From Virgibacillus ihumii (GTDB lineage: Bacteria > Bacillota > Bacilli > Bacillales > Amphibacillaceae): a DNA stretch of 64,000 bases. The stretch covers positions 558,001 to 622,000 of the forward strand of contig NZ_CACVAN010000001.1 in NCBI RefSeq assembly GCF_902726655.1. The letters are read 5' to 3'. Both the position numbers and the translations under genes were made by a program. Shown piece after piece: positions 709 to 55,587 of the stretch (position 1 is its first letter; each line of letters begins with the position of its first letter). The notes under the pieces are model-generated. The model was not told the DNA's origin, made no database searches, and saw only the letters and a list, made by a program, of their open reading frames with translations.

Positions 709-937
709 GGGGCTGGGACAAAAAGTGATTTATCAAAAGAAAAAACGAATTAAATGGTGGACTCAACCGCTCCGGAAATATACTTCGCTTTCCGCGGGCA
801 GCTGTTGAGCCCTCCTCGTGCTTGCGCACTGCGGGGTCTCATCTAGGCCTGTCCCCCGCAGGAGTCTACGTATATTTCCTCCGCTAGTCTCTATAATTGT
901 TCGTTTTTTGAATTGCACTTTTTGATTTGTCTCATCC
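709..937. repeat. Element D: monomeric hairpin repeat with imperfect terminal inverted repeats
   Basis: A noncoding, strongly self-complementary block between the permease promoter and the DUF2252 gene. The left edge (GGGCTGGGACAAAAAGTG) is imperfectly inverted at the right edge. The core, at about 770-883, folds into a long stem whose outer arms are CCGGAAATATAC and GTATATTTCCTCCG. The inner arms are GCGGG/CCCGC and GAGCCCTCC/GGGGTCTC. The same order of blocks (GCTTTCCGYGGGC, GAGCC.CCT, GGGGTCTC, CCCRCAGGAGTC) recurs in elements A, B and C, where two units face each other. It may also act as a terminator for the DUF2252 gene. Together with the promoter it accounts for the gene-free stretch 577-945. 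Confidence 0.75.
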
Positions 938-22005: not shown

Positions 22006-22410
22006 TAAACTGCGACATAGTATGATGTTTTACCCCCGCTGCGGAAATACACGTCGCTTTCCGTGGGCGGCTGATGAGCCTCCTTGCGCTACCGCGCTAC
22101 GGAGTCTCATCTAGGCCTCTGCTCCCACAGGAGTCTCCGCGTATTTCCTCCGCTATTTTACGTTTATGACTCTTTGCTGGAATCGAAATCGTTATAGAAA
22201 AACGGATGATACCACTACACTAGTCCGGGTGAGTGGAGGGCGGTGACTCCTGCGGGAACAGCACGTGTCCGAAGACCCCGCAGAGTGGTTTTCTCGAGGA
22301 GGCTGAGGCCGTGCCCGCGGAAAGCATCCGCCCGAAGCGATCCCGGACGGTAGGGCGAGAAAGTGGACGTAATTATATAAAAACATTCCAGTAGTTGTGT
22401 CGCAGTTTAT
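22006..22410. repeat. Element A: 405-bp inverted dimer with 12-bp terminal inverted repeats
   Basis: The ends TAAACTGCGACA (22006-22017) and TGTCGCAGTTTA (22399-22410) are perfect inverted repeats. Inside are two long hairpins, about 22038-22155 and 22225-22350. The left has outer arms GCGGAAATAC and GTATTTCCTCCGC. The right has GTCCGGG and CCCGGAC. The two are diverged copies of one unit facing each other. It carries no plausible gene. It resembles a MITE or REPIN. No clear target-site duplication is seen. It fills the 460-base gap between rbgA and rnhB. Confidence 0.85.
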
Positions 22411-22456
22411 GGATATTGTGTAATAACGGATATTACCAGAGAGAGAAGGTGATAGG

Positions 22457-32209: not shown

Positions 32210-32236
32210 ATCGAAATATTGAAATGGAGGATAATT

Positions 32237-33016
32237 ATGGAACTTTTAGATCGAGCCAGAAAAATCAACGCAATGCTGCAGAAAGCAACAGGCAAATCGG
32301 TGAACTTTAACGAGATGTCTGCATCACTGAGGGAGGTTATCAAAGGAAACATTTTCATCCTGAGCAGACGCGGTAAATTATTAGGTTTTGCGATCAATCA
32401 GGAAATTGAAAATGATCGTATGAAAGCAATGCTGGAGGATAGACAGTTTCCGGAAGAATACACTCAAGGACTCTATGGGATTTATGAAACGACAGCGAAC
32501 CTTGATATTGACAGTCCGTACACTGCATTCCCTGTTGAGAACCGGGAGTTGTTTAAAAATGGTCTGACAACTATTGTACCAATTATTGGTGGTGGTGAGC
32601 GTCTTGGAACCTTGGTGCTAAGTCGTTTGACTGAAAGTTTCAGTGACGATGATCTTCTGCTTGCAGAATATGGTGCCACTGTTGTCGGTATGGAAATTCT
32701 TCATGAAAAAACAGAAGAAATCGAAGTGGAAGCAAGAAGCAAGGCAGTTGTTCAAATGGCAATCAGCTCATTGTCCTACAGTGAACTTGAAGCGATTGAC
32801 CACATTTTTGAAGAATTAAATGGGCATGAAGGACTGCTTGTAGCTAGTAAAATAGCAGATAGGGTCGGCATAACCAGATCCGTAATCGTCAACGCGCTTC
32901 GCAAGCTGGAAAGCGCCGGCGTTATCGAATCCCGTTCACTTGGAATGAAAGGAACATATATTAAAGTTCTAAATGATAAATTCCTAGTTGAGCTGGAAAA
33001 GTTAAGATCAAGATAA
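32237..33016 (+). CDS. codY: GTP-sensing global repressor CodY
   Basis: 259 residues, exactly the B. subtilis length. ATGGAGG lies just before the ATG. The N-terminal GAF domain binds branched-chain amino acids, with GTP as the second effector. The C-terminal winged helix contains [21 protein letters not shown]. It represses nutrient-uptake, amino-acid synthesis and competence genes in rich conditions. In B. subtilis the fla/che operon follows; here a terminator and element B follow. Confidence 0.98.
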
Positions 33017-33104: not shown

Positions 33105-33330
33105 TTATATTTATAAGGCTGTTTAAAAGATTGTGTTATACAAAATCCATAAACTGCGACATAGTATGGCTCTACCACCGCTGCGGAAATACACGTCGCT
33201 TTCACTTTCGAGCATAAGTGCGACATCTGCTCAAGCAATCTTTCGCAGTGTCTTCTTTACCGTGGGCGGCTGATGAGCCTCCTTGCGCTGTCGCGCTACG
33301 GAGTCTCATCTAGGCCTCTGCTCCCGAGTG

Positions 33331-33391
33331 AAGGAAGGCCGACTAAGACCGGCCTTTGCGGCCAACGTCGGCATACCCCTTTGTAGGGGCA
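33331..33391 (+). repeat. Nested module I2 in element B
   Basis: 61 bases from AAGGAAGG to GGGGCA. It folds as GCCGAC/GTCGGC enclosing a GGCC-TTTGC-GGCC hairpin, then CCCC/GGGG. Compared with I3, two base pairs differ by changes on both sides, so pairing is preserved. Confidence 0.75.
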
Positions 33392-33546
33392 CGTATTTCC
33401 TCCGCTATTTTTACGTTTATGACTCTTTGCTGGAATTGAAATCGTTATATAAAAACGGATGATACGACTACACTAGTCCGGGTGAGCGGAGGGCGGTGAC
33501 TCCTGCGGGAACAGCACGTGTCCGAAGACCCCGCAGAGTGGTTGAA

Positions 33547-33606
33547 AAGGAAGGTCGACTAAAACCGTCCTTTGCGGACAACGTCGACATACCCCTCGTC
33601 GGGGCA
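33547..33606 (+). repeat. Nested module I3 in element B
   Basis: 60 bases, same orientation and fold as I2. It has GTCGAC/GTCGAC enclosing GTCC-TTTGC-GGAC, then CCCC/GGGG. Outside the last loop only five positions differ from I2, and four of these are two compensated pairs. Confidence 0.75.
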
Positions 33607-33840
33607 AGGAGGCTGAGGTCGTGCCCGCGGTAAAGAAGACACAGTGAAAGTGGTCTTCTTGAACTGATGTCGCACTTATGCTGGCAGTGAAAGCATCCGC
33701 CCGGAGTGATCCCGGACGGCAGGGCGAGAGATGGATGTAATTATAGAACTCATTCTAGCAGTTATGTCGCAGTTTTGTTCAAATAGGAATCCAGTTCATA
33801 ATATATGCAAAAGAACTTGCTGTTATTTACACAATAATGC

Positions 33841-34016: not shown

Positions 34017-34796
34017 ATGTCAGTAATTTCGATGAAACAATTGTTGGAAGCTGGTGTACATTTTGGTCACCAGACTCGCCGTTGGAACCCAAAGATGAAA
34101 AAATACATCTTCACAGAGCGGAACGGCATTTATATCATTGACCTGCAAAAAACTGTTAAAAAGGTTGATGAAGCTTACAAGTACGTAAAAGATCTGGCTG
34201 CAAACGGCGGTTCCATTCTTTTCGTAGGTACAAAAAAGCAGGCGCAGGAATCTGTGCGTGATGAAGCAACGCGTTCCGGTATGTTCTATGTTAACCAGCG
34301 CTGGTTAGGTGGAACACTTACAAACTTCCAAACAATCCGTAAGCGTATTAACCGTCTTAAAGACATAGAGCGTATGGAAGAAGATGGAACGTTTGAAGTA
34401 CTTCCGAAAAAAGAAGTAGTTGACTTATTGAAAGAAAAAGATCGTCTCGTTAAATTCCTGGGTGGAATTAAAGAAATGAACAAGCTTCCTGATGCAATGT
34501 TCGTTATCGATCCACGTAAAGAGCGTATTGCTATCGCTGAGGCACATAAATTAAATATTCCGATTATCGGAATTGTTGATACAAACTGTGACCCGGATGA
34601 AATTGATTATGTAATCCCGGCTAACGATGATGCAATCCGCGCGGTTAAACTTCTAACTTCCAAAATGGCCGACGCTGTTCTGGAAGTGAAGCAAGGTGAA
34701 GAATTAGAAGACGTGCAGGAAGTTCCAGGTGAAGAACAGCCGGAACCAGCAGAAAAGAAAGCAGCTGCTGAAACCACTGCCGAAGATAACGAATAG
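34017..34796 (+). CDS. rpsB: 30S ribosomal protein uS2
   Basis: 259 residues, starting [20 protein letters not shown], with the [12 protein letters not shown] segment. The acidic C-terminal tail (Glu/Ala-rich, about residues 235-259) is a little longer than in B. subtilis (246 residues). TTAGGAGG precedes the start. tsf follows beyond a hairpin, the usual rpsB-tsf pairing. Confidence 0.98.
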
Positions 34797-37209: not shown

Positions 37210-37245
37210 TCATTTTGATCCCTTGGAATTCAAGAAAAGCATCAT

Positions 37246-37373
37246 TTTTTATAACTTCAGAAAGTATAAATTATGGTAGACCTTATAAGAAAATTTTTGG
37301 GGTTTAGTATTGTCTTTTCCAGAGTTGATGGAAAATGAGTTTTTCTTGGATTTTAAGGAAATCGTTATAAAAA
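37246..37373. repeat. Element E: 128-bp repeat with TTTTTATAAC terminal inverted repeats
   Basis: TTTTTATAAC at 37246-37255 is perfectly inverted as GTTATAAAAA at 37364-37373. The left 45 bases, including ATGGTAGACCTTATAAGAAAA, are nearly identical to element F at 52.6 kb. The interior differs. No gene is present. Together with the frr terminator and the uppS promoter it accounts for 37146-37573. Confidence 0.7.
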
Positions 37374-52592: not shown

Positions 52593-52622
52593 AAAAAAAG
52601 CAGGAGCAATCCTGCTTTTTTT
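52593..52622 (+). terminator. Rho-independent terminator after rpsO
   Basis: AAAAAGCAGGA and TCCTGCTTTTT arms over GCAA, with a T8 run. Its T tract merges with the left end of element F. Confidence 0.9.
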
Positions 52623-52732
52623 ATAACGTCTGAAATTATAAATGATGGTAGACCTTATAAGAAAAACTTCGGCACTCGCTATAAGACGGGCGAATGCCGA
52701 GTTTTTTCTAATACTTATACCACTTATAAAAA
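52618..52732. repeat. Element F: 115-bp repeat related to element E
   Basis: Left end TTTTTATAAC (52618-52627), right end CTTATAAAAA (52723-52732). The segment to 52665 nearly matches element E. The interior has a hairpin with arms ACTTCGGCACTCGC and GGCGAATGCCGAGT (about 52665-52703), followed by TTTTT, a second terminator-like structure. Confidence 0.7.
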
Positions 52733-55006: not shown

Positions 55007-55407
55007 AAAACTGCGACATAAACTGCTGGAATGAGTTCTATAATTACATCCATCTCTCGCCCTGCCGTCCGGGATCGCTCCGGGCGGATGCTTTCCGCGG
55101 GCACGGCCTCAGCCTCCTCGAGAAAACCACTCTGCGGGGTCTTCGGACACGTGCTGTTCCCGCAGGAGTCACCGCCCTCCGCTCACCCGGACTAGTGTAG
55201 TGGTATCATTCGTTTTTCTATAACGATTTCGATTCCAGCAAAGAGTGCCTAGACTCCGTAGCGCGACAGCGCAAGGAGGCTCATCAGCCGCCCACGGAAA
55301 AGAAGACACTGCGAAAGCTTGCTTGAGCAGGTCGCGCTTATGCTCGAAAGTGAAAGCGACGTGTATTTCCGCAGCGGTGGTAGAACATCATACTATGTCG
55401 CAGTTTA
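55007..55407. repeat. Element C: 401-bp inverted dimer in reverse orientation
   Basis: The ends are AAAACTGCGACA (55007-55018) and TGTCGCAGTTTA (55396-55407). The reverse complement matches elements A and B. It carries the I1 module (about 55297-55352) at the same site as element B. It lacks I2, I3 and I4. It has lost about 60 bases of one hairpin arm at a junction near 55248. It explains most of the gap 54959-55587. The remaining 180 bases hold only weak promoter-like sequence for ylxY. Confidence 0.85.
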
Positions 55408-55587
55408 TGGATTTTGTGTCAGTGTAAAATTAAAAATTCAAAACAGCCTTTGTGTAGGACTGATTATTATTGATACGATACATGTATTCTCTTGATAACG
55501 GTACTGACGTTCATTTTGAATGGGAAGCGTCATTTTTTAACATAACCTGTCCATATTCCTCATATGGATAAATGAGGGGGGATTCGG

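Follow-up and report, generated by a model that had tools for sequence, protein, structure and literature searches.

The gap between codY and rpsB in Virgibacillus ihumii contains two short, similar modules, I2 and I3, and this locus raises the question of what these modules are, which strand of them folds, and how they came to lie there. The whole stretch of 64,000 nucleotides analyzed here is referred to as the window, and its features are listed in Table 1. I2 and I3 lie in identical orientation with a spacing of 216 nt. They share 90% identity over 50 nt, with five differences (C9T, G17A, G22T, C32A, and G41A). Realignment bore out the preliminary description, in which four of these differences form two compensated pairs: C9-G41 and G22-C32 have both become T-A pairs between I2 and I3, and the fifth difference falls in the unpaired TAARACC linker. 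By simple arithmetic, two whole pairs would be hit among five random differences with a probability of ~0.001, or ~0.0001 if pairing is restored. The three-helix fold described for both modules was likewise recovered, with its stems mapped in each. The loops of I2 and I3 read TTTGC, TTTGTA, and TCGTC (GCAAA, TACAAA, and GACGA on the complement), and the conserved internal loop reads TAAAACC/AAC on the plus strand and GGTTTTA/GTT on the minus strand.

Table 1. Features of the codY–rpsB gap and related repeat copies in the window
Feature	Position	Strand	Remarks
Partial relative of the host 5' arm	762-886	+	Slot 2 empty (CCCGCAGGAGTCTACG)
Copy A of the host repeat	22006-22423	+	Both slots empty
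codY	32219-33016		Named by Pfam
Host repeat, element B	33136-33775	.	640-nt imperfect palindrome between codY and rpsB; carries I2 and I3
Left terminal inverted repeat (TIR), AAACTGCGACATA	33151-33163	+	100% complementary to 33763-33775
Extra segment of 57 nt, host 5' arm	33203-33259	.	Missing in copy A, present in copy C
Module I2, slot 2 of the host 5' arm	33330-33391	- (Rfam orientation +; wobble evidence favours -)	Diverged Bacillaceae-1-type fold
I2 helices	33338-33343/33367-33372; 33351-33354/33360-33363; 33374-33379/33386-33391		
I2 third stem, CCCC/GGGG part	33376-33379/33386-33389		
Module I3, slot of the host 3' arm	33546-33606	-	Fold as in I2
I3 helices	33554-33559/33583-33588; 33567-33570/33576-33579; 33590-33595/33601-33606		
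I3 third stem, CCCC/GGGG part	33592-33595/33601-33604		
Extra segment of 59 nt, host 3' arm	33630-33688	.	Partly the inverted complement of 33203-33259; missing in copies A and C
Right TIR	33763-33775	-	Perfect 13-nt partner of the left TIR
rpsB	34017-34796		Named by Pfam
Copy C of the host repeat	55011-55425	-	3' slot empty; slot 2 region of the 5' arm deleted

A default Rfam scan of the 64-kb window at gathering scores returned no match, rRNA included, because I2 and I3 score just below the gathering cut-off of the Bacillaceae-1 model (RF01690; Weinberg et al., 2010, PMC2864571). In an E-value-mode scan, both modules match this model over its full length (E ~2e-4), with 34.1 bits for I2 and 34.6 bits for I3 against the cut-off of 35, and the initial view that they correspond to no named RNA fails. 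Like Bacillaceae-1, I2 and I3 have an outer stem, an asymmetric internal loop (CTAAR.../CAAC), an inner hairpin, and a third hairpin, with an AAGGA 5' flank and a Bacillaceae host; the consensus fold and the conserved unpaired linkers of the family are present in both. The CodY protein of this host shares 92% identity with that of three Lentibacillus genomes and one Virgibacillus. The terminal loops of Bacillaceae-1 are described as RUCCU, and members of the family sometimes adjoin rRNA operons. UCCU is visible in the RF01690 consensus. I2 and I3 carry TTTGC and TTTGTA/TCGTC loops instead of RUCCU, have a shorter inner hairpin, and lie inside a repeat of the codY–rpsB gap, away from an rRNA operon. 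Because of their sub-threshold scores and their loops, they were filed as a variant and not as plain RF01690 members.

With our own model R1, which includes both sequences, I2 and I3 score 59 and 63 bits. When 18 loci of the same subtype were scanned with the Rfam model, the main module reached at least 35 bits in two (36.4 in L151; 36.1, 35.2, and 35.2 in L165) and 30–34.6 bits in nine, and was not reported at E 0.1 in seven (L149, L153, L155, L156, L236, L240, and L248). The TTTGC subtype is borderline or sub-threshold for the Rfam model, its terminal-loop consensus gone and its fold and linkers retained. I2 and I3 look like a diverged TTTGC-loop subtype of the Bacillaceae-1 repeat family.

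Further copies were collected with a 66-nt query around I3. Among 149 genomes related to one of Lentibacillus, 33 gave a match, at most six copies being scored per genome. From 90 loci 104 copies were cut, some places being taken twice; these, less one fragment but plus I2 and I3, make 105 sequences, 73 of them distinct. A cut of 10 differences left out 26 and gave a close set of 47 distinct copies. Within helices 1 and 2 of the close set, 97.7% of cells are paired and 50 are double-change cells, compared with at most 27 in 1000 shuffles and at most 5 with slid partners. The inner pair 33568-33578 is seen as G-C, T-A, and C-G among the close copies. A wide set of 100 distinct copies with both loop types was fitted to model R1, a procedure biased towards the structure; 91.6% of its cells are paired (65.4% in shuffles), 402 are double-change cells (114.5 in shuffles, at most 68 with slid partners), and the covariation score is 0.572 (0.170 in shuffles). 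Two other measures discriminate little: at least one double change occurs in 16 of the 17 pairs (shuffle mean 14.0; 16 or more in 5 of 500 shuffles), and the number of further pair types is 40, compared with 37.2 in shuffles (40 or more in 79 of 500). Conservation is among the highest in the columns of the unpaired linkers, judged by the close-set consensus and the invariant alignment columns. The covariation of the module fold is overwhelming. The preliminary description had proposed a selected fold and a covariation test of it; that check has in effect been performed on 47 and 100 distinct copies, and its signal, far above chance, strongly supports the proposal.

RF01690 matches are widespread. 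They were found in 18 of 20 Bacillaceae genomes, with up to 97 per genome, and in 69 of the 121 genomes related to one of Halobacillus, ten of these 69 having at least 38 each. Eight Bacillaceae-1 copies were newly annotated in B. subtilis (PMC8208703). The Bhal-1 and Bhal-2 elements of Bacillus halodurans (74/76 bp, 36/50 copies, stem-loop; PMC2267715) resemble Bacillaceae-1, as compared by description only. In the open-access literature on Bacillaceae-1, to which the search was confined and which leaves out subscription journals, no description of nesting in repeats was found. An association of the modules with tRNA or rRNA genes was considered and rejected as a general feature, because tRNA genes occur in only two of the 48 module loci. 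At L137:1504-1566, a plus-strand module lies between tRNA-Glu and tRNA-Val, and at L446:1504-1567 another lies ~110 nt past the last of nine tRNA genes. As tRNA genes lie near them, these two modules may be co-transcribed on the Rfam plus strand.

The repeat that carries I2 and I3, element B, has a DNA fold 12 SD below that of 20 shuffles (z -12) and contains no ORF of at least 80 aa. In its TIRs, short length, and lack of such coding sequence, it resembles a MITE. MITEs and composite palindromic repeats, such as REP/BIME and bcr1 of Bacillus cereus, are short, palindromic, and high-copy. The host repeat shares these properties and is TIR-bounded, with no coding sequence found; unlike them, it is modular, structured cassettes replacing hairpins in fixed slots, and no partner transposase was found for it. 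Its TIR pattern was found in all 12 genomes searched, the single match in G034 not being above the control. Among the matches listed for 12 plus 5 genomes, no autonomous transposon with the same TIRs was seen by eye, the inward TIR pairs there being ~0.15–0.85 kb apart. No target-site duplication was seen by eye in the three window copies, whose two ends differ in length, and a search of plasmids and phages with the host element gave no match. The two other long host copies in the window, A and C, are both without modules. The mirror-placed extra segments of 57 and 59 nt represent further modular differences beyond the cassettes. Outside the palindrome, a 56-nt AT-rich direct repeat occurs at 37245-37300 and 52617-52672 with 88% identity. 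The alternative raised at the outset, a palindrome needed for mobility, stands in part, as regards the setting: the palindrome that encloses the modules is TIR-bounded, occurs in many copies, and has slots both filled and empty.

Comparison of filled and empty slots indicates how the modules are accommodated. The empty 3' slot reads CCCCGCAG-AGTGGTTTTCTCG-AGGAGGCTGAGG, and in the filled slot the module stands in place of TTCTCG (window) or TCTCG (G040). In slot 2, the module takes the place of ~13 nt. Slot filling is hairpin replacement and no clean insertion. Copies in G040 are 98% identical to I3; by our own count among the 38 of 57 matches listed for this genome, 26 span the module and 12 end at the slot, and the slot is empty in all ten of these 12 that were retrieved. 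Elsewhere, the module occupies the mirrored 5'-arm slot (L143, L212, and L213) or slot 2 (L156, L249, and L250). Four RF01690 matches of 77–80 bits lie between inward TIR pairs (G002:C67, G002:C89, and G001 near 1587649 and 2178618). A different, unrelated repeat marked CGATAAGTCAACATCG...GTTTCCTTTATCTC, referred to as host 2, also carries the module. In Virgibacillus indicus, the codY–rpsB gap contains a host-2-like element with a module (L004:11068-11125), and only the module aligns between this gap and that of the window; this locus is among the seven module matches across 80 codY loci (1.6 Mb). In Amphibacillus marinus, a marginal match (L030:10931-10994; 21 bits, E 0.099) lies directly downstream of codY.

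Module orientation was counted at 236 distinct places with mirror-symmetric rules. Host 1, the repeat represented by element B, was recognized in 54 places, with 54 modules in sense (47 in the 3' arm, 3 in slot 1, and 4 in slot 2) and none in antisense; many of these 54 places share ancestors and are therefore not independent events. Host 2 has 37 sense and 2 antisense modules, and 143 of the 236 places fit neither host. The orientation is not set by the local slot sequence, because mirror-image arms would then invert the module, yet they do not. With some places taken twice, all 15 nearest relatives of I3 are in the 3'-arm slot, and the 15 nearest relatives of I2 are distributed over host 2 (12), slot 2 (2), and the 3' arm (1). 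Since their nearest relatives differ, I2 and I3 are probably separate lineages and not products of a recent duplication. Two other loci show more complex arrangements. L165:1498-2021 (= L258) is a composite with alternating modules, three in plus orientation at 231-nt steps and two in minus orientation in between; the plus modules are of the TTTGC type, and the minus modules score 67 bits with the Rfam model. L138:1501-1599 contains a Bacillaceae-1 copy, measured at 102 or 99 nt, with an extra segment inside, an apparent nesting in the module itself.

A folded RNA tolerates G.U pairs and not A.C pairs. On the Rfam strand, the 12 core pairs of 213 distinct copies, a core chosen post hoc, contain 45 A.C and 12 G.T mismatches (37 vs 12 by cluster, p 5e-4). 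The same lean is seen in all 17 pairs of the RUCCU-loop copies (n = 111; A.C 44, G.T 12), in the alignment-free outer helix (six inner pairs, 181 parsed copies; A.C 33, G.T 9), and in the TTTGC-like group of 83 copies (A.C 19, G.T 3). A SAM riboswitch control of 30 copies from the same genome set gave A.C 7 and G.T 54. Host-arm transitions, used as the control for mutation bias (34, 30, and 3 distinct sequences), amount to 18 vs 20 events and 38 vs 63 by cells; plain mutation bias is no explanation, because these transitions are balanced by events and lean the opposite way by cells. When all 17 pairs and both loop types are pooled, the counts are A.C 101 and G.T 122. The two loop-side pairs of helix 3 account for 86 of the G.T cells, 85 of them in 102 copies outside the strict RUCCU type, and the pooled excess arises because these model columns are not true pairs in non-RUCCU copies. 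The favoured strand itself has few wobble pairs (2% of core cells vs 7% in the riboswitch).

The third stem gives a similar indication. Its CCCC/GGGG pattern could be parsed in 61 of 217 copies, the other 156 not fitting; among these 61, the next pair is A.C on the plus strand (G.U on the minus strand) in 57, and one position further on, all have a Watson-Crick pair (T-A 56, C-G 4, and G-C 1). Among 209 distinct modules, the more stable fold belongs to the complement in 188 and to the plus strand in 20, with one tie. For I2, the conserved fold all but coincides with the minimum-energy fold only on the minus strand, the plus strand adopting a different fold; for I3, it does so on both strands. 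The discoverers of Bacillaceae-1 were unsure of its strand, as stated in PMC4333381. Since it is the complementary strand that tolerates wobble pairs, the molecule that folds is probably an RNA complementary to the Rfam model; it would here be antisense to codY and rpsB, and this strand agrees with the placement of CsrA-binding motifs on the reverse complement (PMC4333381). A promoter scan returned four patterns, all 9/12 (shuffles 1.6, sd 1.3). Two of them lie at the element's right-hand edge, on the minus strand (33826-33798 and 33781-33752), which is compatible with transcription of this strand and no proof of it. Gene neighbours at 77 module places are tandem in 57, convergent in 15, and divergent in 5, a further 24 places being left out (19 inside a crude ORF and 5 at edges). 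In the tandem cases, both genes are on the plus strand in 35 and on the minus strand in 22, with no clear strand preference. This neighbour pattern is as for repeats tolerated downstream of genes.

Several other explanations were weighed against these data. An sRNA transcribed from the plus strand, as modelled in Rfam, would accord with the orientation of that model and with the plus modules near tRNA genes in L137 and L446 (2 of 48 loci), but the wobble counts, the third-helix A.C pattern, and the different minimum-energy fold of the I2 plus strand oppose it, and we consider it quite unlikely. An equally improbable explanation starts from the proposal, made in PMC4333381, that the reverse complement of Bacillaceae-1 carries CsrA-binding motifs: the module would be a CsrA-binding sRNA whose GGA loops titrate CsrA in the manner of CsrB/RsmZ-type RNAs. 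The strand favoured by the wobble counts is that of the proposal, and csrA gene matches were found in 37 of 38 relatives searched. However, GGA is absent from the complement-strand hairpin loops of I2 and I3, which therefore cannot act on CsrA via such loops. TCC is missing from the first-hairpin loop in 104 of 188 parsed copies (25 unparsed), 71 of them of the TTTGC type, and the fold and linkers persist. Moreover, G011 and G018 encode CsrA yet have no module match. The RUCCU type may bind CsrA. Lentibacillus jeotgali (G003) has no CsrA match and one weak Bacillaceae-1 match, two other Lentibacillus genomes having 33 and 78; its pattern is not diagnostic, because G011 and G018 have CsrA without the module.

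It is likewise unlikely, if a little less so, that the module acts as a DNA-level hairpin, in single-stranded or cruciform form, in transposition like the REP hairpins of Y1 (HUH) transposases, and not as RNA. The nesting of the module in a TIR-bounded palindrome, the high copy number, the rarity of both kinds of mismatch, as expected if both strands matter, and the presence of Y1_Tnp genes in 18 of 20 genomes are in line with such a role. Against it, the A.C/G.T asymmetry is strand-specific, the orientation is fixed in both host-1 arms, and G008 has 29 Bacillaceae-1 matches and no Y1_Tnp, though G018 has neither; of the 30 Y1_Tnp loci, 20 were scanned with Rfam, and none showed Bacillaceae-1 at E values up to 0.5. 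A REP/RAYT system, with the repeat beside the Y1 gene, was rejected, as none of the 20 scanned loci carries the module. Imperfect palindromes can be corrected by template switching, as is generally known, and the hosts are palindromes; double changes might arise with no selection if one palindrome arm were copied over the other. This is very improbable: the conservation of the unpaired linkers speaks against it, and the residual mismatches are strand-asymmetric, whereas the host-arm transition events are not.

With moderate confidence, we regard I2 and I3 as Bacillaceae-1 RNA cassettes of the TTTGC subtype that occupy slots of a non-autonomous palindrome, a reading that includes the following proposals on strand, spread, and retention. 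The functional molecule would be an RNA of the strand opposite to that modelled in Rfam, which at this locus is the minus strand. The cassette would spread mainly as a passenger when the host repeat is copied, and would occasionally replace a hairpin in another repeat. It would be retained since its fold, with the conserved internal loop, either lets a host protein dock or shields read-through transcripts. Because the internal loop is the constant part, the likeliest use would be in RNA read through the repeat, as a domain that docks a protein or protects the transcript. Beside these proposals stand the observations: the same fold, its covariation, the high copy number, and filled and empty slots in one genome, together with the same module in an unrelated host, one orientation in both host-1 arms, and nearest relatives that differ between I2 and I3. 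More tentatively, and with rather more doubt than conviction, Bacillaceae-1 as a whole may consist of interchangeable structured-RNA cassettes, repeated in high copy number and taking the place of hairpins at fixed slots in several unrelated non-autonomous palindromic elements, held in one orientation and acting as complement-strand RNA, with at least two loop types and therefore probably two ligands.

The finding is real and named at the family level; the subtype, the setting, and a testable strand reassignment are new. What Rfam lists as an sRNA family without an assigned function appears to be a repeat of high copy number carried within larger palindromes, and some caution is advisable since many annotated Bacillaceae-1 sRNA genes may be repeat copies. 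The strand of Bacillaceae-1, reportedly doubted by its discoverers (PMC4333381), can now be argued from data. In these bacteria, structured domains appear to be swapped as cassettes between mobile-looking repeats.
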